NCBI GenBank assembly: GCA_003249935.1
Contig: QKHT01000029.1
Location: 1 to 36,183, forward strand
Direction: 5' to 3'
Origin: Bacteroidota bacterium
GTDB lineage: Bacteria; Bacteroidota; Bacteroidia; Bacteroidales; UBA5342
DNA length: 36,183 nt
How positions within the stretch are numbered: the first letter of the stretch is position 1; the number at the start of each line of letters is the position of its first letter. A program made the translations under genes and the position numbers. This document shows positions 1 to 31,848 of this stretch, piece by piece. Below the pieces are notes generated by a model. The model was given only the letters and a program-made list of their open reading frames with translations, ran no database searches and was not told the DNA's origin.

Positions 1-2265
1 TGCATCGCTGAATGCTAAAGAGGTATTTAATACGGTAGCTCCGGTTACATTTGCTCCGCCCGTAATGGTAGCACCGCCAGCCATTGTTGTAGCACCGGTA
101 AGTGTGGTGGTTCCGCCTACAGTTAAGTTACCCGCAGTTACAGCCAAGTTACCTGTTGAAACCGCTAAATCACCAGATGATATTGTTGCACCATTACCGA
201 GAGTTGCTGCACCGGTTACACCCAAAGTACCGCCTACCGTTGCATTGTTGGCTATAGCCGCACTATTTAGTGTCGATGCGCCGGTTACATTCAAAGTATT
301 GTTAATGGTTGTTGCCCCATCGATGGTTGCAGTACCGGTTACACCCAAATTACCTGTAATAGAAGCACCACCGGTAGAAACAGTTAAACCGGTTCCAACA
401 GTTACGTTACCTGTTGTGGCAATGTTGGTACCATCGTTAGTTAAAGCACCTGAGGTTACCCATTTTGTACCATCCCAACGAAGCGTTTGATTTGGAGCGG
501 TACCATTCTCAATAGCACTCGACATTTTATCTTCTACAAACTTTGCAACCGCTTTTTCAGTTACTGTTTTTGCATCAGATGCTGATGTAGAGGCTTGTAT
601 TCCTTCGGTTGAAGTAACAACGGCCTCAGCATTTAATTTGTCGAAAGTAACAGCACCATCGGCTATTTTGGCTGTTGATACACCACCATCTTTAATTTGA
701 ATGGCATTTGAACCATTTACTTCAACAGTTACACCATCGGTGTTTACATCTAATGCTCCGGTTGTGCCATTTTGAGATAAAGCAACGCCTGCTACATCGG
801 CATTAAGTTTTGCTGCAGTTACTGCATCGTTCAAAATATTAATCGTTTTTACTTCGCCTTCACCTATTTTTGCTGAAGTTACAGAACCATCGGCTAATTT
901 TTCATTGGTTACATTGGCATCGGCTATCATTGTGGTAACTACTTTACTTGTACCAATAGTTGTTACACCAGTATTGCTCATAGTTACATCGCCACTCATC
1001 GTTTGTGCAGCTGCTTTTCCATCAGTTCCACCAATAAGTATTTTACCATCAGCAAGATTAATATTTTGAGCTGAATTTTCAATTGCTTCTTTTACAGCGG
1101 CTTCGGTAATAAGTTTATTATTGTTAGCTGCTAAAGTACCACCCGATTGGGTAATTCCGTTTACTGTATTACTACCTATTGTTAAATCTCCACCTGTTGT
1201 GATTGAACCGGCAGACAAAGCACCGGTTACGGTTGCTGCACCACCCACTGTTGCATTGCCGGTTGTAGCCAAAGTTGCTGCAGAAACGGCACCTGCAGTG
1301 GTAACAGAACCAGCGGTTAATGCGCCTGTAACATCTGCTGTACCCGCATTTACTGTACCAGTCACGGTTGCATCGCCACCAACAGTTGTATTACCTGTAA
1401 TTGCTGCATTGCCACCAATTGTTGCGTCTCCGGTTGTAGTTATTGAGGCTGCACTTACTGCACCTGTTGTGGTAAAGTTGAGCGAAGAGGTAATCCCATT
1501 GGCAAGATCTATTTTAAATTTTGCAGGATCGGCCGCTGCCCATTTGCCGCCATCCCAAACCAGTACCTGACCGGCGGTGGTACCTTCTTCTACACTGGCT
1601 ACGCGTGCAGTAACAAAATCGTACACAGCTTTGGATGTCACCAAATTGTTGCCATCAATAGCGGTTGAACCGTCTGCTGTTATACCATCTTTGGTTGTAG
1701 TAATAGCATTTATTTCTGTTCCGGCAACACTTATTGAGGCCACCGAAATACCATTTATTGCAGAATTACCACTTTCGTCTAAAAGCGTCCAAAAATCAGC
1801 TCCATCGAATGCTGCATCGTTTGATATTGCATCTTTTGCCACATACATCCCATTGTTGTGCATCACAAGCTGCCCTTTGGCATAGCTACCACCGGCAACC
1901 CAATCCTGGGTTACATATATTTCCTGCCATACATCGTCCAATTTATCGGTATTTCCTTTGTCATCAGCCAACAAATACTGTTTGTACGCACCGGTTTGAT
2001 CGGTAAAAGTAACAACCATACCTTCGGTTCTGCGAGCAGCAGTAAGGTCGCCATTGGTATTAATCGCATTACTCGCGCCACCGGCTAAATTGAGTGTACC
2101 TAAGTTGTGCATTCCGCCTTTAACATGTTCCGATTTTACAATCGGTAAATCACTCCATGCTTGTGGAGTTAATGTTGTGTTCATCCGTGTTTCGGTTGTT
2201 TGCGCTGTTGCACCAAACGTGGTAGCTATGGCAAACATGCTGATTAATAAACTAAACCTTTTCAT
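1..2265 (-). CDS. Long secreted repeat-rich fibre-like surface protein, C-terminus beyond the window
   Basis: An open frame of 755 codons with no stop starts at the ATG at 2265 and continues past base 1, so only the N-terminal part is seen. Residues 1-22 look like a signal peptide ending ATAQ. Residues 116-163 resemble a family 5/12 carbohydrate-binding module (W122, Y128, G131, V134, Y141, W159). Residues 263-366 and 610-755 are six-residue-periodic Gly/Thr/Val repeats (GDATIG, GNTTVG, TGNLGV, TGTATI style). Residues 440-550 carry ADGxVTxxK(I/L) repeats. A module with KAV, QxLxWDGxKW occurs at about 211-242 and 570-602. This composition resembles phage tail fibres and trimeric surface fibres. 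It is the last visible gene of a four-gene minus-strand operon, 21 bases after its neighbour. Secretion through T9SS is inferred from the operon; the sorting domain, if any, is off the window. No enzymatic function is suggested. Confidence 0.85.
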   Translation of the reverse strand, partial: MKRFSLLISMFAIATTFGATAQTTETRMNTTLTPQAWSDLPIVKSEHVKGGMHNLGTLNLAGGASNAINTNGDLTAARRTEGMVVTFTDQTGAYKQYLLADDKGNTDKLDDVWQEIYVTQDWVAGGSYAKGQLVMHNNGMYVAKDAISNDAAFDGADFWTLLDESGNSAINGISVASISVAGTEINAITTTKDGITADGSTAIDGNNLVTSKAVYDFVTARVASVEEGTTAGQVLVWDGGKWAAADPAKFKIDLANGITSSLNFTTTGAVSAASITTTGDATIGGNAAITGNTTVGGDATVTGTVNAGTADVTGALTAGSVTTAGAVSAATLATTGNATVGGAATVTGALSAGSITTGGDLTIGSNTVNGITQSGGTLAANNNKLITEAAVKEAIENSAQNINLADGKILIGGTDGKAAAQTMSGDVTMSNTGVTTIGTSKVVTTMIADANVTNEKLADGSVTSAKIGEGEVKTINILNDAVTAAKLNADVAGVALSQNGTTGALDVNTDGVTVEVNGSNAIQIKDGGVSTAKIADGAVTFDKLNAEAVVTSTEGIQASTSASDAKTVTEKAVAKFVEDKMSSAIENGTAPNQTLRWDGTKWVTSGALTNDGTNIATTGNVTVGTGLTVSTGGASITGNLGVTGTATIDGATTINNTLNVTGASTLNSAAIANNATVGGTLGVTGAATLGNGATISSGDLAVSTGNLAVTAGNLTVGGTTTLTGATTMAGGATITGGANVTGATVLNTSLAFSDA

Positions 2266-2286: not shown

Positions 2287-3471
2287 TTATTTTATAATTG
2301 TAAGCTTCACATTTTTATACCAATCCGGAACTAAAGTTGCAATTCGCCATACCTGATAGTCGATTCCATTAATAGCCAGATTTTGTTTTTTTAATCCATC
2401 AACAACTTCATAATCATCTAAATAGAATTGTGGTCTGCCCCACTCTGCCGGAAAGGCCACGACATAAAATTTTTTATTACCTTTTATTAAATTGTAGCCG
2501 TTTTCGTCGAAATCTTTTTGGTTTGAATAAGCCATAAAATTTCCTGTACTCAATAACTCATCCACACTAATCTTTCCCGATTTTTCTAAACTATTACTCT
2601 CTCCGATAAAAACCGTGAAATCCTTTGAAGTAGCAGTTGATGATATAGAAAGACTAATCCAACTATCACCATAACTGTCGCCATTTGTATCAGTATACAC
2701 AAACCATTCATTTTGCCCTTTACCATTATCCTTTACAAAACACATATCCCCGACTTTAGCACCTGTTGCTTTAAGTTGACTAATGTGGTTCAATATACAA
2801 ACACCATGTGCCGAAGGTGCTGATGCCGGTTTTATACTGTTTATCCTGTTTTCGAAATAAACGCTGTCTTCCACTATTTTACGGGTAAATTTTCTTTCGA
2901 TGGTTACTAATCGGTTGGTAAACAACAAGCTGTCATTCGAAATTTTAATATATATTTTTGAAATCTCTGCTTTTAAACTGTCAATTGCCTTTTGATTGTT
3001 TTGTGCACCATAAAGCTTCGAGAAATAGGTACTATCGCTGATTACTTTATTGAATAATTTATTGATTTTATTTTCGAAAAAGGTACTATCACCCTTAATT
3101 TTAAGAAGAATTGCCTGAAAATTACCCGAAACATCTACTGTATCAACCGGCATTTGCACTGTATTACCGGTAGTGCTTAATTTTATCCATTTTGTGCCTT
3201 CGAAATAAAAGAATGCTTTTTCAGATAAATCGAAAACCAACAAACCTACCGCTGTTTCGTCGGGGTTAATGGCAATCCTTTCGGCAGTGGACATGCGCGG
3301 AATAAGTAAACCTGATTGTGTTGAATAAACCTCAAGTTTTGCAAATTTATTGGTTGAACCATCACGTTTGCCAATAAGAACGCCACTCTGTGCATGCAAC
3401 AGTTGAGTTCCTGTTTCAACTACAAACAGCGAAACTAATGCTAAAGCAAATATTTTCAGTTGTTTATTCAT
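2287..3471 (-). CDS. Secreted tail-fibre-like hypothetical surface protein, 394 aa
   Basis: The protein starts with a signal peptide (cleavage near LLHAQ, residue 28). Residues 29-105 contain a pattern common in Bacteroidota surface proteins: a short Gly-rich strand, then SGLLIPRMSTAERIAI, then VGLLVFDLSEKAFFYFEGTKW, which resembles the WDGxKW knobs of the longer protein encoded next to it. Residues 120-215 form a probable coiled coil with a recurring D-S-x-x-[FY]-x-N/K-[RK]-[IL] unit (GDSTFFENKI, SDSTYFSKL, NDSLLFTNRL, EDSVYFENRI). The C-terminal half has a Gly/Asp loop region and ends in a compact beta-rich segment. It is separated by 2 bases from the PorP/SprF gene upstream and by 21 bases from the long fibre gene downstream, so co-transcription is very likely. 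No T9SS sorting domain is obvious. Exact function is unknown; a surface adhesin or fibre component is the best guess. Confidence 0.8.
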   Translation of the reverse strand: MNKQLKIFALALVSLFVVETGTQLLHAQSGVLIGKRDGSTNKFAKLEVYSTQSGLLIPRMSTAERIAINPDETAVGLLVFDLSEKAFFYFEGTKWIKLSTTGNTVQMPVDTVDVSGNFQAILLKIKGDSTFFENKINKLFNKVISDSTYFSKLYGAQNNQKAIDSLKAEISKIYIKISNDSLLFTNRLVTIERKFTRKIVEDSVYFENRINSIKPASAPSAHGVCILNHISQLKATGAKVGDMCFVKDNGKGQNEWFVYTDTNGDSYGDSWISLSISSTATSKDFTVFIGESNSLEKSGKISVDELLSTGNFMAYSNQKDFDENGYNLIKGNKKFYVVAFPAEWGRPQFYLDDYEVVDGLKKQNLAINGIDYQVWRIATLVPDWYKNVKLTIIK

Positions 3472-3473
3472 AA

Positions 3474-4421
3474 TTAGTTGAGCAGATAAATCATTTTTTG
3501 TTTTCTTTCGTCGTTATGTTTTCCGTCTCCAAAACGAAAATCAAGCCTCATTTCAAAACTCCCGTAAGTAAATCTTTTTAACTCTGTAAGCTGCGCTTCG
3601 TAAGAGAAAGCTAAACGCGAAACAGGCCCAATTTTAACATCGCACGACATAATCACCGATTCGTTTATCCGGTTCGAAACGCCAAACCAAACTTCATCGT
3701 TATACAAAAAGTTGATACCTGCTTCATATGTACGAATGTTGCCCGGCAAAAACCTCGCCTGCATCGATTCTTTAATTCTCCAAGCCTGATTCAATCGTTG
3801 TATTGTACCGGCAATAGCATATGTTCCCTGATAAAAATCCACTTCGGTATACCTATTACCGTTTATCATAAGGTACGAACTTACGCCGGTATAAAATTTG
3901 GTGTTATAGTACAAAAATCCTAAACCCGCACACGGATTCACAAAACTGTAAAAACTGTTGGCAAAATCGTAATTCGAACCGTAGTTACTTTCCGGATATA
4001 GCGATTTGTATGTGATGATTTTATCCTTATCAATGTAATTATATTCAACACCAAATTGTAAACCAAATCCTAAATAGTTTGAATTACTTACCTGTAAATC
4101 TATATTTATGTTTGAAGAGACGTTCGATATACTAAAATTTCCTCTCTTTACATTTACACCTTGTATGCCTACACCCATATTATATCGTTCAATTGGTAAA
4201 AAAGATGTAAATCCATAAACCTCCGGACTCCCTTTGAGACCGTTCCACTGATTCCGGTACAGAATTTTGGCGGAAAAGCTGTTTTCAATTACAGAATATG
4301 CAGGATTCACGAAATCGACCGTTTTAAAGATTTGAGAAAACTGAACCGGCAATTGAGATTTGCCTGTAATGCAAATGCTCCACAGTGCGCATAGAAACAA
4401 TATTGAATAAAGTTTTTGCAT
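3474..4421 (-). CDS. PorP/SprF family type IX secretion-associated outer membrane protein
   Basis: This 315-aa protein has a signal peptide (about residues 1-22, ending GKSQ), followed by the family hallmark: FSQ near the mature N-terminus, then VNPAYS and a short SFSAKILYRNQWNGLKGSP stretch, and repeated amphipathic beta strands typical of an outer-membrane barrel (GVGIQG, YLGFGLQFGVEYNY, FYTGVSSYLMING, WFGVSNRI). Length matches the family. In Flavobacterium johnsoniae, SprF is required for surface display of the SprB adhesin, and relatives are often encoded beside proteins with type B T9SS sorting domains. That arrangement is present here: the upstream gene, 7 bases away, ends in a type B-like domain. 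I infer that it assists export or surface attachment of one or more proteins of this operon. The family assignment is firm; the partner assignment is inferred. Confidence 0.88.
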   Translation of the reverse strand: MQKLYSILFLCALWSICITGKSQLPVQFSQIFKTVDFVNPAYSVIENSFSAKILYRNQWNGLKGSPEVYGFTSFLPIERYNMGVGIQGVNVKRGNFSISNVSSNINIDLQVSNSNYLGFGLQFGVEYNYIDKDKIITYKSLYPESNYGSNYDFANSFYSFVNPCAGLGFLYYNTKFYTGVSSYLMINGNRYTEVDFYQGTYAIAGTIQRLNQAWRIKESMQARFLPGNIRTYEAGINFLYNDEVWFGVSNRINESVIMSCDVKIGPVSRLAFSYEAQLTELKRFTYGSFEMRLDFRFGDGKHNDERKQKMIYLLN

Positions 4422-4428
4422 ACCATAA

Positions 4429-5691
4429 CTAAAATGAAGCTTTTACATCAATAAAATCTTGTTTCGAATATCTTATACCATCCAAAGTATAATTGAAAAC
4501 ATAATAGTAGGTACCATCTTTATAATTCTTCATATCCAAATTATTATGGTACGGTTTTGCCCGAAACAGCTCTTTTCCGGAACTATTGTACATGATTAGT
4601 TCAGGTTCACCAAATGTTGCCAATTCGTTTATAATGAACCGCGATTCGCGTCCTTCTCCCGGGGCAATAAAATTTACAAATTCAGTTTCAACGCCGGTGG
4701 CCATAGCAAACAAGCCCAGCTTGTTAATATCTGTGGCTGAAACTACAGGAGAAAAACTCTTACGGGTATCTGAACCCAAAAGTGGTAAAACACCAGCTTT
4801 TTGCCATTTAGGAAAACCATTTTTGTAATCTCCGGCCATTATTAACGCAAAAAGATTACTTTTTAATTCAGCACTTCTTTTAAACCCTTCAATCTGACCT
4901 GTGAAATTTATTTTCCCACTTAAATTATTTTTGTCAGCTGTAATTTCCCAACCACCAATATTAATTATTTGATTGAAAGTAACCACATCATTTTTAATAT
5001 CTATTCGGTTTCCAAGGTTATAATCTGAAGTAAAATTTACATTTAAAAAATCAGCATCATTGAATTGATTTTCAATTTTTACAGGATAATAACCATTTAA
5101 GTTTCCTACCGGAAACATATATGTTTCGCCGGTTGATACCTTACGTTGCATATTACCAATAACATACGACTTCGAATTATTTTCAAAAAGAGCATTAACT
5201 GCCGCAGGATTTCTCGATTCAATTTTTAGTGCATAGCCTTTAAATACTTCAATATTTCCCGAATTAAGTGTTAATTCATTTTCTATAACTAAACTGTTAT
5301 TACACAAAAATGAACCCCCACTTAATGTATTCATTTTCAAATTGTATATATTTAATGGTTTATCACTGTCTAAATTCAGTGTACCGGTACCCTCTACCAC
5401 AAAATCACCAATACCGGTAAATAATTTGTTGTTCACCTCATTACTAAAATAGCGGTTACCTTCTCCACCAAAAATTAACGAACCATTATTCACAATCGAA
5501 ATATTGCCAACTGTTTTCAGATTACCATTAATGGTAACACTTTCGCCTTTAGAAATCACAATTTCTTCATTTCCAAAACAAACCATATCGGCCGACTCTT
5601 TTGAAGGCTGAGCATATGTTGCAAAACCACATGCAGAAATTCCTCCGATGAGAACGTATACTGATACTATATGTAATGTTGGAAATTTCAT
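4429..5691 (-). CDS. Secreted beta-rich protein with type B T9SS C-terminal sorting domain
   Basis: I chose the ATG at 5691 (420 aa) rather than the in-frame ATG at 5745, because it places a normal signal peptide (MKFPTLHIVSVYVLIGG, cleavage near FATYAQ) at the N-terminus. Residues 45-180 have short repeated strands of beta-helix type (VTINGNLKTVGNISIVNNGSL, LTLNSGNIEVF). The last 80 residues match the gliding-motility-associated type B sorting domain in outline: a degenerate PGEGRESRFIINEL in place of PNGDGxNDxFxI, then LIMYNSSGKELF, a YHNNLD turn, and the strongly conserved DGTYYYVFNYTLDG close to the end. Such domains direct export by T9SS and pair with SprF-like partners; the PorP/SprF gene lies 7 bases downstream. 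It is the first gene of the operon. A cysteine in ISAC could be read as a lipobox but the AYAQ cleavage looks better. Binding target is unknown. Confidence 0.82.
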   Translation of the reverse strand: MKFPTLHIVSVYVLIGGISACGFATYAQPSKESADMVCFGNEEIVISKGESVTINGNLKTVGNISIVNNGSLIFGGEGNRYFSNEVNNKLFTGIGDFVVEGTGTLNLDSDKPLNIYNLKMNTLSGGSFLCNNSLVIENELTLNSGNIEVFKGYALKIESRNPAAVNALFENNSKSYVIGNMQRKVSTGETYMFPVGNLNGYYPVKIENQFNDADFLNVNFTSDYNLGNRIDIKNDVVTFNQIINIGGWEITADKNNLSGKINFTGQIEGFKRSAELKSNLFALIMAGDYKNGFPKWQKAGVLPLLGSDTRKSFSPVVSATDINKLGLFAMATGVETEFVNFIAPGEGRESRFIINELATFGEPELIMYNSSGKELFRAKPYHNNLDMKNYKDGTYYYVFNYTLDGIRYSKQDFIDVKASF

Positions 5692-6124
5692 TTGAATTGA
5701 TCTATTAAAACTGCATGTTAACAATTTGTACTTGTTGTAAGTCATTCATTAAAAGCACTAACGCTAAAGTCACATTATTCCGATACGAATTCATATTTTT
5801 AATCTTTTAATTATTATCCCTAAATAAAGATTATCATATTTCATGCCAAAATTTTATTTACTTTATATTCAATACTTTACAAATTAAATACATCTTATTA
5901 AATAAATATTTCTTCATTCCCGAAGATATATTTTCGTTCTAATCACAATACAAATATAAAGCAAATATTTTATATATGATAATTTATTGTTAAGTTTATT
6001 ACTATATATCTCATACTTATGTTACCTTACTATTAATTTATAATTAATCTACTCAAATATTATTTACATTAAAATCATATTAACAAATATAATACATTAT
6101 ATATAAACATCTTACTTCAAATTA
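5692..6124. other. AT-rich non-coding leader region
   Basis: No convincing gene is present between the surface operon start and the hairpin at 6125. The DNA is strongly AT-rich. A minus-strand TATATTTG at 5958-5951 fits the Bacteroidota -7 element TAnnTTTG, but no matching -33 element was found at normal spacing, so the operon promoter is not settled. If used, it would give a 5' leader of about 250 bases. Confidence 0.5.
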
Positions 6125-6261: not shown

Positions 6262-7137
6262 TTAGAAATACTTCAATTCATTCAAATTATTCGATGCCGA
6301 AATTAAATTATTTGCCAACCTGCTTGCACCAATTCTGAATAGCTCTGGCTTGAGCCATTCTTTACCCAAAATATTTTCAACAATTGTATAATATAAAATG
6401 GCATCTTCAACAGTAACAATTCCACCGGCCATTTTAATACCTACCATTTTTCCGGTTTTTTTATAATACCACTCAATAGCTTTACACATTACTATTGCAG
6501 CTTCAGGCGTTGCAGAAACAGATGTTTTTCCGGTTGAAGTTTTAATGAAATCGGCACCTGATTCCATTGCCAAAATTGCGGCGATAAATATTAGTTTTGG
6601 TGTTTTTAATTCACCCGTTTCTAAAATTACCTTCAGGTGTTTTTCCTTCAGTAATTGTTTAATTTCACTAATTTCTTCATACACTGCATCATATTCTTCA
6701 TTTATAAATGAACCCACAGGCATAACAATATCTATTTCGTCGGCACCATCCAAAAGTGCAAGGTTAACTTCTGCAATTTTTATTTCAATAAATGTTTGCG
6801 AAGATGGAAAACCACCAGCCACAGCAGCAATTTTAATCCGTTTAGAATTTAGGCTGTTTTTCAACTGTCCTACAAAATTAGGATAAACACACAAGGCTGA
6901 AACTTCTGGCATATCGGGATAATTTACCCTAAAATTGTTTACTTTATTAACAAATATTGTGATGGAATCCACACTGTCTGTTACATTCAATGAGGTAAGA
7001 TCGAGCAAACCAAAAATCAATTTGTAAATATCCTGATTACAATTTTTTTCTAATAATTCGTTCGTTTCTTGAAGGATATTACTGATTTCTTGGTCAGTAA
7101 TCACTTCTTTTATAAGATCGTAAAATTGTGCATTCAT
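6262..7137 (-). CDS. deoC: Deoxyribose-phosphate aldolase
   Basis: The enzyme reversibly splits 2-deoxyribose 5-phosphate into glyceraldehyde 3-phosphate and acetaldehyde in nucleoside catabolism. Counting from the ATG at 7137 (291 aa), the TIM-barrel active site is intact: D136 in ADEIDIV, the Schiff-base lysine K199 in FIKTSTGK, and the second lysine K235 in GIKMAGGI. The phosphate-binding glycine motif follows. The protein is longer than the roughly 260-aa E. coli enzyme because of an N-terminal helical extension, as in Bacteroidales homologues. An alternative ATG at 7170 would add 11 low-complexity residues. The gene stands alone on the minus strand, ends in a strong terminator, and faces away from the putative origin. 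In Bacteroides, as I recall, deoC follows uvrC and mazG; here it is displaced. Confidence 0.95.
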   Translation of the reverse strand: MNAQFYDLIKEVITDQEISNILQETNELLEKNCNQDIYKLIFGLLDLTSLNVTDSVDSITIFVNKVNNFRVNYPDMPEVSALCVYPNFVGQLKNSLNSKRIKIAAVAGGFPSSQTFIEIKIAEVNLALLDGADEIDIVMPVGSFINEEYDAVYEEISEIKQLLKEKHLKVILETGELKTPKLIFIAAILAMESGADFIKTSTGKTSVSATPEAAIVMCKAIEWYYKKTGKMVGIKMAGGIVTVEDAILYYTIVENILGKEWLKPELFRIGASRLANNLISASNNLNELKYF

Positions 7138-7170
7138 TAGTACCGTATTATATATATTATTATTAATCAA

Positions 7171-7767
7171 GCAATTAAAAAATAATTGAAATTATTCGTA
7201 GTGCAAAATTCAGATAAATATTTAATATTACCAATAATCTTAACCAGTTCAACATAAAATATATAAATTATATGTTGTATGATATTGCTGTTAATAAGTT
7301 CTGAGATATTATGTTTGGTAAATTGTAATATCTTTTAAATCTGTATTTTACTCTAATGAAACATGAGTATGGATAAAGCAATAAAATTGTGAATAAGTTT
7401 TAATTATTTCTGATCCTTTGATTTTTATATTCAATAACATTGTATATAAAATCAGTGATTTGAATAATGCAAGTAAAACTTGTTATTACTTTTAAATAGT
7501 TATCCATAGTCTTTCAGAATTTTTAATCGTAATATTGAAGCAATAATTTTTAACTTTGTGTGGTTTGAACAATTGTGGATAACAATCATTAATATATTGT
7601 ATGTCAATATTGTAATTCAAATTTTATTGTGAACAACACCTTTATAACATTAGGTAATTTATTAATAAAGGAAGTTGCAAGAAAATTAACACAAAGTTTT
7701 ACACTATACTAACAGGCATAATAGTATTAGTAATTTAATTTAAATATATATCAATAATAATAATAAT
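7171..7767. other. Candidate replication origin (oriC) in divergent intergenic region
   Basis: This 600-base stretch between deoC (minus) and nadA (plus) has no credible gene and is very AT-rich, with near-pure A/T segments at 7141-7200 and 7725-7767 that could serve as unwinding elements. It holds a cluster of DnaA-box-like 9-mers: 7368-7376 (TATGGATAA, one mismatch), 7388-7396 (TGTGAATAA, one mismatch), 7500-7508 (TTATCCATA, one mismatch), 7574-7582 (TGTGGATAA, perfect) and 7628-7636 (TGTGAACAA, two mismatches). Genes diverge from it on both sides and G/C strand bias appears to flip here. TAnnTTTG elements at 7310-7317 and 7551-7558 are possible plus-strand promoters. No dnaA gene lies in the window. 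The assignment is an inference. Confidence 0.6.
7574..7582 (-). promoter_or_regulatory. Perfect DnaA box
   Basis: The minus strand reads TTATCCACA, the consensus DnaA-binding 9-mer. Three one-mismatch boxes lie within the 215 bases to its left. Function depends on the surrounding region being an origin. Confidence 0.6.
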
Positions 7768-8721
7768 ATGAATGTTGCTAACAACATTGATTTTAAATCT
7801 GAGATAAAGAAGATAGCCAAAGAGAAGAATGCAGTAATACTTGCTCATTATTATCAAAACGATGATATACAAGATATTGCAGATCATATTGGCGATAGTT
7901 TGGCCCTTGCACAATGGGCCAAAAATACAACGGCCGATATTATTGTACTTTGTGGGGTTCATTTTATGGCCGAAACGGCAAAATTACTCTGTCCAGAAAA
8001 ATTGGTTCTTTTGCCAGATACAAATGCCGGCTGTTCGTTAGCCGATTCGGCCGATCCAACTGAATTTAAGGCTTTTGTTGATGCCCATCCTGATCATGTG
8101 GTTATTTCTTATGTGAATACTTCTGCGGCAATTAAAGCTTTAACAGATGTAGTAGTTACTTCTACAAATGCCAAAGCAATTGTTAATAGCTTTCCATTGG
8201 ATAAAAAGATTATCTTTGCGCCGGATCGGAATCTCGGCAATTATTTAAATAGCATAACCGGACGAAATATGGTACTTTGGGATGGGGCATGCCATGTTCA
8301 TGAACAGTTTTCGCTAGAAAAAATTTTAAAATTAAAGCAGGAATATCCGAAGGCATTGGTCTTATCTCACCCCGAATGCAAGAAAGTGATTCTTTCTATA
8401 TCCGATTTTATTGGTTCAACCAGCGCACTTTTAAACTTTTCTAAAAATAGTGTGGCTCAAGAGTTTATTGTAGCTACAGAATCCGGTATTTTGCATGAAA
8501 TGCGAAAGGTATGTTCCGAAAAATTGTTTATTCCGGCTCCACCCAATGATAGTAGTTGTGCTTGTAATGAGTGTAACTTTATGAGGTTAAATACTTTAGA
8601 AAAACTATATTTTTGCCTTAAAAATGAAAGTCCGTATATAACGTTAGACGATAACATTAAAGATAGGGCCGTTATTCCAATAGAAAGAATGCTCAAAATA
8701 TCTCAGGATTTAGGTTTATAG
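7768..8721 (+). CDS. nadA: Quinolinate synthase A
   Basis: NadA condenses iminoaspartate with dihydroxyacetone phosphate to give quinolinate, the second step of de novo NAD synthesis, using a 4Fe-4S cluster. The 317-aa protein has the expected length of the short form. It begins its core with VILAHYYQ and QDIADHIGDS, and carries the cluster cysteines in DTNAGCSLAD (C89), WDGACHVHE (C175) and the CACNECNFM motif (264-269). The extra cysteine in HPEC (C204) is not one of the usual ligands. No nadB or nadC gene is in the window. It is the first gene of the long rightward run, next to the putative origin, and ruvB follows 9 bases after its stop codon. Confidence 0.96.
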   Translation: MNVANNIDFKSEIKKIAKEKNAVILAHYYQNDDIQDIADHIGDSLALAQWAKNTTADIIVLCGVHFMAETAKLLCPEKLVLLPDTNAGCSLADSADPTEFKAFVDAHPDHVVISYVNTSAAIKALTDVVVTSTNAKAIVNSFPLDKKIIFAPDRNLGNYLNSITGRNMVLWDGACHVHEQFSLEKILKLKQEYPKALVLSHPECKKVILSISDFIGSTSALLNFSKNSVAQEFIVATESGILHEMRKVCSEKLFIPAPPNDSSCACNECNFMRLNTLEKLYFCLKNESPYITLDDNIKDRAVIPIERMLKISQDLGL

Positions 8722-27705: not shown

Positions 27706-30090
27706 ATGATACTTATACGAAAATTATTGTCAATTTTTCTGATGTTTTCTGCGGTTTTGTCTGCTCAAATCTCAGTTGGAACCTGGCGTACGCACACTTC
27801 TTACAGTGTTGGGCAATCGGTAGCCTATACCGGAACTAAAGTGTATTCGGTTGCAGGTGGCAGCCTTTTTTCGTATAGCATTTCGGAAAAATCGACGGCA
27901 TTGTACAATGCCACAAATGGTCTTCATGATGTAAATGTTAAATTTATTGCCTACAATACACAATATAAAGTGTTGGTTGTGGTATACGAAAACAGCAATA
28001 TCGACCTCATTACAGAGGGTGGCGTTACCAATGTTTCGGATATTAGCAGAAAAACACTTTCTGGCAGTAAGTCAATTAACCGGGCCTCTTTCGATGGTAA
28101 AAATTGTTTGTTAAGTACCGATTTTGGTTTAATTATTCTCGATTTGGTTCGGGCAGAAATTAAAGAAATATATCCGATGGCTTCCATAGGCAGTTCGGCA
28201 GTAAATGATGCCGCTGCCGATAAGGATAATTATTATGCAGCCACAAATAAGGGTTTATATAAAGGTTCAAAAAATAGTGCCAATCTCATCGATTTTTCTG
28301 CCTGGCAAAAAGTATCAGTGATAGCCGGTCAGGAAGACTACTACTATTCTGACGTAGAAATGTGGCAGAACCGGCTGACTGTTGCTTTTGCTCCCAAGAA
28401 AGGCGATATAATTAACGTGTGCACACTGATGGATGGCGTTTGGCGTTCGTTATACCCGGATATTGTAACCCCGGTTGAAAAGAATATCATGCAACTTAAA
28501 ACAACCGGAGACAACATCATGCTTCTATTTAATGGTTATATACGAACCGTTAAGTATAATACCACTTCGGCCAAATTTCAGCATGTAAATTATCTTGGAA
28601 AATATGTATTCTCAGACCCCCTTATTTCTACGCGTGTAGGGTCGGTAGATGCAGAATTTGTAAATGCTAATGAATACTTTATTGCCGATAATTCGCTGGG
28701 TTTGGTAAACCATAAAACAAGTAATGTATCAACAGTATTAGCACCAAACGGTCCATATTCCAATAATGTATTCGATTTCGATTTTTCCACAGCAGGTTTA
28801 CGGGTTGTACAAGGTGGTGTTAATGGCGACTGGAATAACATGAGTTTACCCGCTGCTGTATCGCGATATTCCAATGGTGTGTGGTCTTCGATTACAAAAT
28901 CAAACAGTAATAAGCTTAACGGGGTGTATGATATGATATCGATCGCCACCGATCCACTGGATAATAAGCATTATTTTGTTGCTTCATGGAACAGTGGGTT
29001 AATAGAGTTTAAATCAGATACCGTTTTTAGAATTTACGATGCATCGAATAGTCCGCTGGAATCGGCAATTCCGGGGAGTACTTTTTTTCGTATCAATGGC
29101 CTTGTGTTCGATAAGGATAATAATCTTTGGTTAACCGATACTTATGCCAATAATCCGATTCAAATGCTCGACAAAAATGGTCAATGGCACACTTATGCAT
29201 TTACGGAGATTGGTAGTGCGGCTGGTGTATTTGCTTTAGGAAAAATTATTATCGACCAGAATAACCTTAAATGGGTACAGGTACCTCGTGAAAAGGGCAT
29301 ATTCGTATTCGACGATCGTGCGCTCACCGATACTGCTTACCGCACACATCGTAAAATGTTACAAATTCTTGATGAAGATGGAAAAGTAATCTCAAACGAT
29401 GTATATGATTTGGCCGAAGATAAAAACGGCGCGATTTGGGTAGGAACCGCTAATGGTGTTGTGGTGTATTACTCGCCCGAACGGGTATTTAATGCAGGGG
29501 TTTTTACTGGTTCACGTATAAAAATACCTAGAAATGATGGTTCCGGATTGGCCGATCTGTTACTCGATGGCACCTTGGTAACTTCTATAAAGGTTGATGG
29601 GGGAAATCGTAAATGGATTGGAACAAGTGGTGCAGGTTTATTTTTGGTTTCGGCCGACGGTTTAACTACACTGCAACATTTCGATACCCAAAACAGTCCC
29701 TTGCCTTCCGATAATATTATCAGGTTGGGAATTGACGAAACCAACGGCGAGGTGTTCATTGCTACCGATCGTGGATTAGTTTCATACCGGTCTGATGCTA
29801 CTACCGGTAACGAAGATTTTCTCAATGTACATGCTTTTCCAAATCCTGTTCGTGAGGATTTTACAGGAAATGTTACAATAACCGGCTTGGTATACGATAC
29901 CAATGTAAAAATAACCGATGTTAGTGGAAACCTTGTTTTTCAAACTACTTCAAACGGTGCATATGCTACATGGAATGGCCGCAATTTTTATGGAAAACCG
30001 GTCGGAACAGGTATTTATTTGGTTTATTGTGCTTCCAAAGATGGCTCAAAATCGGCAATGACAAAAATTCTCGTGGTAAAAAAGAATTAA
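27706..30090 (+). CDS. porZ: Type IX secretion system protein PorZ-like, with beta-propellers and C-terminal sorting domain
   Basis: A 794-aa secreted protein. After a signal peptide (ending VLSAQ, about residue 21) comes SVGTWRTHTSYSVGQSVAYTG, the usual PorZ opening, and two beta-propeller domains built of repeats such as YAATNKGLYKG, GAIWVGTANGVVVY and GEVFIATDRGLVSY (two-component-regulator propeller type). The last 80 residues (VHAFPNPVREDF, VKITDVSGNLVF, GTGIYLVYC, MTKILVVK) form a type A T9SS sorting domain. In Porphyromonas gingivalis, PorZ is part of the cell-surface attachment complex with PorU, PorV and PorQ and binds A-LPS. It lies downstream of glycosyltransferase and heptose genes and 2 bases upstream of a CvpA gene. 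Family call is good; the symbol is by homology. Confidence 0.87.
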   Translation: MILIRKLLSIFLMFSAVLSAQISVGTWRTHTSYSVGQSVAYTGTKVYSVAGGSLFSYSISEKSTALYNATNGLHDVNVKFIAYNTQYKVLVVVYENSNIDLITEGGVTNVSDISRKTLSGSKSINRASFDGKNCLLSTDFGLIILDLVRAEIKEIYPMASIGSSAVNDAAADKDNYYAATNKGLYKGSKNSANLIDFSAWQKVSVIAGQEDYYYSDVEMWQNRLTVAFAPKKGDIINVCTLMDGVWRSLYPDIVTPVEKNIMQLKTTGDNIMLLFNGYIRTVKYNTTSAKFQHVNYLGKYVFSDPLISTRVGSVDAEFVNANEYFIADNSLGLVNHKTSNVSTVLAPNGPYSNNVFDFDFSTAGLRVVQGGVNGDWNNMSLPAAVSRYSNGVWSSITKSNSNKLNGVYDMISIATDPLDNKHYFVASWNSGLIEFKSDTVFRIYDASNSPLESAIPGSTFFRINGLVFDKDNNLWLTDTYANNPIQMLDKNGQWHTYAFTEIGSAAGVFALGKIIIDQNNLKWVQVPREKGIFVFDDRALTDTAYRTHRKMLQILDEDGKVISNDVYDLAEDKNGAIWVGTANGVVVYYSPERVFNAGVFTGSRIKIPRNDGSGLADLLLDGTLVTSIKVDGGNRKWIGTSGAGLFLVSADGLTTLQHFDTQNSPLPSDNIIRLGIDETNGEVFIATDRGLVSYRSDATTGNEDFLNVHAFPNPVREDFTGNVTITGLVYDTNVKITDVSGNLVFQTTSNGAYATWNGRNFYGKPVGTGIYLVYCASKDGSKSAMTKILVVKKN

Positions 30091-31771: not shown

Positions 31772-31773
31772 CG

Positions 31774-31848
31774 TCGGGGTGGAGGGATTCGAACCCCCGA
31801 CCCTCTGTTCCCAAAACAGATACGCTAACCGGACTGCGCTACACCCCG
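31774..31848 (-). tRNA. tRNA-Pro (anticodon TGG)
   Basis: The minus strand folds into a full cloverleaf of 75 bases including the discriminator A. The acceptor stem CGGGGTG pairs with CACCCCG; the D arm is GCGC...GCGT; the anticodon stem TCTGT/ACAGA encloses the loop TTTGGGA with anticodon TGG; the T arm holds GGTTCGAAT. CCA is not encoded. It has its own promoter upstream at 31871-31900 and a terminator directly downstream. Confidence 0.97.

Follow-up and report, generated by a model that had tools for sequence, protein, structure and literature searches.

The replication origin of Escherichia coli, oriC, does not lie beside dnaA. In Prevotella intermedia OMA14, an oriC far from dnaA was predicted from a skew transition together with several DnaA boxes, and origins far from dnaA are described as common in Bacteroidetes (PMC4755523, with DoriC); a dnaA-distant origin is therefore not new, having already been reported for Bacteroidetes in that paper. 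The E. coli oriC has been placed at gidA-mioC (PMC10225481). In the basal unwinding system (BUS), as described, DnaA boxes in tandem and of one orientation are followed by about 4 bp of GC-rich spacer and then by triplets whose middle base, on the opposite strand, is A (PMC8287927, PMC10721633).

The window analysed here (36,183 nucleotides) is the entire contig C115 of a 326-contig draft genome of 4.27 Mb. Within it, deoC (6262-7170, minus strand; Pfam DeoC), which reads left, and nadA (7768-8721, plus strand; Pfam NadA), which reads right, enclose a gap of 597 bp at 7171-7767, and we are highly confident that this gap is the chromosomal replication origin (oriC) of this Bacteroidales bacterium. 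A sequence-only reading had already inferred an oriC here, and the inference was supported by the box cluster, the local flip of skew and gene direction, the skew of relatives and two conserved modules. Replication would thus initiate at 7171-7767. The AT content of the gap was 79.4%, bearing out the AT-rich, gene-free region noted earlier between the two genes. If deoC starts not at the TTG (7170) but at an ATG near 7137, as it may, the gap would measure about 630 bp. All four predicted genes left of 7171 were oriented leftward, as was a 755-aa frame at 1-2265 that runs off the left end; the short plus-strand ORFs left of 7171 overlap this frame. The protein genes at 7768-33451 were all oriented rightward, showing the same polarity as had been claimed, with a tRNA-Pro (31773-31848) on the minus strand among them. 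The GC skew was -0.153 left of the gap and +0.164 over 7768-33451, so that the excess of C on the left and of G on the right, previously judged by eye, was confirmed by computation. The cumulative minimum for the window fell inside the gap, 515 bp upstream of nadA, the chromosome as a whole being in 326 contigs.

Other features of the window were recorded alongside. The 755-aa frame (1-2265, minus strand) had a repetitive 'ATVTGxxxxGG'-like sequence up to the contig end and probably encodes a large repetitive surface or tail-fibre-like protein. Left of deoC (2287-5745, minus strand) lay genes for a PorP/SprF family protein and for a protein with a CHU_C type IX secretion signal, and a PorZ-type protein was encoded at 27706-30090.

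All five DnaA boxes named in the sequence-only reading were recovered by the box scan, four with at most one mismatch and one with two, so that the gap holds a DnaA-box cluster, as expected of an oriC. The perfect box TTATCCACA was at 7574-7582 (minus strand); the one-mismatch boxes were TTATCCATA at 7368-7376 (minus) and 7500-7508 (plus) and TTATTCACA at 7388-7396 (minus); the weak box TTGTTCACA, with two mismatches, was at 7628-7636 (minus). The variant TTATTAACA, enriched in relatives (40/91 candidate gaps versus 10/248 control gaps), was found at 7289-7297 on the minus strand. Dinucleotide shuffles of the 597 bp gave a mean of 0.27 boxes with one mismatch or fewer, and 2 of 2000 shuffles reached the four observed. 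When stretches of 597 bp were taken every 100 bp along the window, the maximum outside the gap region was two boxes. The looser pattern TTATNCACA with one mismatch was not in excess over the whole window (59 observed versus 56 expected), and it is therefore the clustering alone that is notable. On other contigs of the same genome, four perfect boxes lay on one strand within 4.1 kb (C180:23917-28011) and two lay 3 bp apart (C121:1627-1647); these groups are possibly secondary DnaA sites or parts of repeats.

Because the own genome is a 326-contig draft, relatives were used for the origin test. Two loci lacking upstream sequence (L023 and L096) were dropped, leaving 121 of 123 in the first box count; L034, L043 and L051 were taken as duplicates of L004, L007 and L009 and removed from all later counts. 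Where gaps were filtered by length, those below 300 bp were dropped and the upper limit was 900 or 1500 bp depending on the analysis. Counting nine box variants, we found 135 boxes in 118 gaps upstream of nadA (54.4 kb, 2.48 per kb) and 18 in 248 control gaps of the same loci (87.4 kb, 0.21 per kb), a density approximately 12 times higher upstream of nadA. None of the nine variants occurred in 51 of the 118 gaps, or in 29 of the 91 gaps of at least 300 bp. The expectation that boxes would be conserved upstream of nadA was thus upheld for their density but not for every relative. With the three duplicate records still included, 4 boxes were counted in the 22.5 kb of 65 divergent control gaps. 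The candidate gaps were 72% AT compared with 65% in the divergent controls, so the chance level of boxes is somewhat higher in them. The E. coli box was rejected as the motif of the relatives, in which TTATCAACA was commoner (49/91 gaps) than TTATCCACA (13/91). At four loci of Hallella and Prevotella (L078, L091, L094 and L100) the gap upstream of nadA was just 58-114 bp, and their origin is therefore probably elsewhere; another Prevotella locus (L071) had a 432-bp gap with boxes.

Two modules recurred upstream of nadA in relatives from the order Bacteroidales, in the same order and at near-fixed spacing. The left module, with a consensus of approximately AAAGTTnTTAACTTTGCannTTATnAACAnnnnGTTAATAA and TTTTnAACA about 40 bp upstream (48 anchored loci), is a TAACTTTGC element amid DnaA boxes. 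The right module reads CAAG, about 15 bases, TTATCAACAnTATYAACA, GGC and then T(ATY) repeats; behind its two DnaA boxes in tandem there is thus first a GC-rich triplet and then a trinucleotide repeat. With only the box pair as anchor (76 of 91 gaps), the frequency of T over the following 15 bases was 0.67 in one phase, compared with 0.40 and 0.24 in the others. Of these 76 anchors, 60 were within 124 bp of nadA, and for the window the anchor fell at 7674 instead of 7697. The full 24-letter reference for the right module scored at least 16 in 48 of 91 gaps versus 2 of 455 shuffle draws, and in one of the control-gap stretches scored.

Models of the left module (R1, 44 of 47 rows aligned) and the right module (R2, 46 of 57) were built from sequence alone with the window left out; family member G002 contributed training rows to both and G001 also to R1. 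In the own genome, where 150 first-look candidates were scored with each model, R1 placed 7512-7584 (plus strand) first with an E value of 5.2e-5, the next among the matches listed being 0.029. R2 placed 7676-7717 (plus strand) first with a weak E value of 0.011, the next among the matches listed being 0.17, and with stricter filters and an E cut of 0.001 R2 gave no match in this genome. The two matches were 92 bp apart, in the order and on the strand seen in relatives; the distance was 79-116 bp in 32 of 33 relatives with both modules on one contig and strand, and -277 in the remaining one. The window therefore carries the arrangement of a Bacteroidales nadA-type origin, with both modules on the same strand, 79-116 bp apart and before nadA, R2 being weak. 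The core of the left module, TAACTTTG, was at 7551-7558 (plus strand) and occurred in 51/91 candidate versus 14/248 control gaps. In Bacteroidales, TAACTTTGC sits between the arms of an inverted repeat (AAAGTT, AACTTT), with DnaA boxes to either side.

The right module of the window consisted, on the plus strand, of GCAAG, two degenerate tandem boxes (7697-7705 and 7706-7714) and GGC (7715-7717), followed by six DnaA-trio-like minus-strand triplets with A in the middle (7718-7735, phase read by eye). Whether compared with TTATCCACA or with TTATCAACA, each tandem box had at least three mismatches, and position 7697 scored lower as a box than two other positions in the last 260 bp of the gap (10/16 versus 11). 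The other parts, namely GCAAG, GGC and the triplets, did fit, as did the spacing. Within the gap, the 50 bp of lowest stability were 7717-7766, at the 99.99th percentile for the window. This stretch began directly after the tandem boxes, giving the gap an unstable AT-rich stretch beside its boxes, which we propose as the unwinding element.

Skew was sampled along three complete chromosomes from three other families (G183, G161 and G199), in 20 stretches of 20 kb each, 17 spread and 3 around nadA. It was mostly negative before nadA and positive after it, and the reverse change came about half a chromosome away; two sampled stretches on the left arm of G199 were weakly positive. In the 60 kb around nadA, the distance of the minimum from the 5' end of nadA was 73 bp in G183, 449 bp in G161 (inside nadA) and 76 bp in G199, and dnaA was in the first 1.2 kb of each record, more than 1 Mb from nadA. 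Local 60-kb stretches of G274 and G318 had their minimum 1.3 and 6.2 kb from the nadA start. Among drafts, the minimum was 202 and 91 bp upstream of nadA in G027 and G043 and 4.3 kb upstream in G004; in G031 the sign changed at nadA with the minimum elsewhere, the switch being only local. A clean switch at nadA was not found in drafts G001 (same family) and G025, though boxes were present in G001. In the complete genome G216, the switch was absent in the 60 kb around nadA and at its best R1 match. Applied to relatives, the proposed check of the skew minimum pointed to the nadA gap in all three sampled complete chromosomes but not in G216. G216 had three perfect and six loose boxes before nadA (C1:2664631-2665566 and upstream; L200, L215-L217); its boxes and its skew could be reconciled by an inversion, by an origin that has moved or by a fault in the assembly. 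Weak DnaA-domain (AAA+) matches, many with identical scores, were dispersed over single chromosomes in G161, G118, G170, G219 and G260; these are probably ATPase genes of insertion elements.

In a draw of 297 genomes, R1 (E 1e-4) matched 48, with the best match upstream of nadA in 40, elsewhere in 3 and unplaced in 5. R2 (E 0.001) matched 129 genomes of the same draw, 77 upstream of nadA and 18 elsewhere, the place of nadA not being listed for the other 34. As an absolute marker nadA was rejected, since the best R2 match was away from it in 18 of the 95 genomes with a known nadA place. A same-strand gene directly preceded nadA in 46 of 118 loci (simple ORF caller). Nor was deoC a constant neighbour: in Bacteroides gallinarum (L046) the upstream gene belonged to the SpoU methylase family (one gene scanned). 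R1 matched 8 times across 197 genomes of the class, and 7 of these matches, that of the own genome included, were in the own order; a 30-letter exact pattern gave no match in viral contigs. At least 16 near-identical weak R2 matches (12.7-13.5 bits, same model span) were spread across one chromosome of G219 and look like a repeat family resembling the tandem-box module.

In two genomes whose right module was not at nadA (G118 and G260), the skew minimum of the surrounding 60 kb was 1.8 kb from the R2 match, and the sampled chromosome skew turned from minus to plus in the interval holding that match, the profile of G118 being weak. To the right of the module, G260 had dut, a TPR protein, a DUF4292 protein and an M23 peptidase; the window keeps this order (dut, TPR, a frame lacking a Pfam match, M23), and nadA, ruvB and a polysaccharide gene lie in between. 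Because G260 retains the right-hand gene order of the window, the origin address looks old and nadA a common but inconstant neighbour. In G260, TAACTTTGC was located between the unwinding module and dut, not before nadA. The left module as a pure origin element was rejected as the leading reading, TAACTTTG not being seen in the G118 origin gap. From its placement in G118 and G260, TAACTTTGC seems tied to the downstream gene.

The gap could instead be the divergent promoter region of deoC and nadA and nothing else, its boxes serving as regulatory DnaA sites and its skew arising from divergent transcription. In the window the skew flips along with gene direction, so the two are not independent, the left module is promoter-like with its TAACTTTGC before dut in G260, and in G216 boxes precede nadA yet the skew switch is absent. 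However, chromosome-wide sampled skew turned at the nadA gap in three genomes, boxes were scarce in the 65 other divergent gaps, and the box/triplet module of G118 and G260 was away from nadA and near the skew minimum, all of which make this explanation very improbable. That the origin lies elsewhere in the own genome, near dnaA or at another box cluster, with the gap an old or secondary site, we likewise regard as very improbable. The module can leave nadA, as in G118 and G260, and the own genome had 84 perfect boxes, partly in clusters, compared with 58 for the reversed control pattern. By contrast, the dnaA contig C162 (31.1 kb) was without a perfect box and absent among the own-genome matches listed for R1 and for R2, and both models ranked 7171-7767 first genome-wide, where the skew also flips. 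The location of dnaA on C162 agreed with the earlier statement that this oriC is away from dnaA.

Reading the gap as the chromosomal origin, as we prefer, known DnaA biology suggests how it would work. DnaA would bind the gap boxes, starting with the perfect one at 7574-7582; a DnaA filament would be guided by the degenerate tandem boxes at 7697-7714 past GGC to the triplets of the minus strand; the DNA beside nadA would open at the unstable stretch 7717-7766; and helicase loading would be followed by the departure of two forks. TAACTTTGC resembles the Bacteroides -7 promoter element, and the TAACTTTG element is most likely the promoter of nadA inside the origin, amid DnaA boxes. Since such a promoter would lie inside the origin, nadA transcription would cross the unwinding site. 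We offer only as a tentative and rather unlikely proposal that the Bacteroidales nadA promoter, with its rigid TAACTTTGC element, is a working part of the origin whose transcription crosses the unwinding module. If so, initiation and NAD synthesis would regulate each other: DnaA on a loaded origin would repress nadA, and transcription would aid melting of the triplet repeat.

In the literature listed, no Bacteroidales origin anatomy beyond skew-and-box prediction was found, and no paper on the nadA address or the two-module layout; DoriC, outside the search, may hold such sites. The nadA-upstream address and two short models would allow origins to be located in many broken drafts, which helps read-depth estimates of growth rate and the choice of where closed genomes are numbered from. 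Of 13 single-contig genomes, 7 began within 1.3 kb of dnaA, and the origin was more than 1 Mb away in the three tested. The module layout also makes direct tests of DnaA unwinding feasible in Bacteroidales.

As an oriC, the gap is a known kind of element. It resembles the origins predicted for P. intermedia and, through DoriC, for other Bacteroidetes in combining skew and boxes far from dnaA; PMC4755523, in what it says of the P. intermedia oriC, does not give the neighbouring gene or modules. Like the E. coli oriC it is away from dnaA, and mnmG (gidA) lies 7.9 kb to its right; its direct neighbours and box layout differ from those of E. coli. The closest likeness in layout, order-wide, was to the BUS, with tandem co-oriented boxes, a short GC-rich spacer and middle-A triplets on the complementary strand (PMC8287927, PMC10721633). 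The triplets were 3'-TAG/TAA-5' in the Bacteroidales relatives, whereas 3'-GAT-5' is given as commonest in the BUS (PMC8287927), and the usual box of the relatives is TTATCAACA, unlike the BUS. At the conserved module, 7697-7705 and 7706-7714 fall outside the BUS rule of at most two mismatches per box (PMC8287927) because each has at least three; for the rule of a spacer of up to 16 bp and at least three NAN triplets (PMC8287927), we found the 3-bp GGC and six triplets, with the phase read by eye. By plain count, other boxes of the gap conform to the BUS rule, for example that at 7500, with an 11-bp spacer and 6 triplets.
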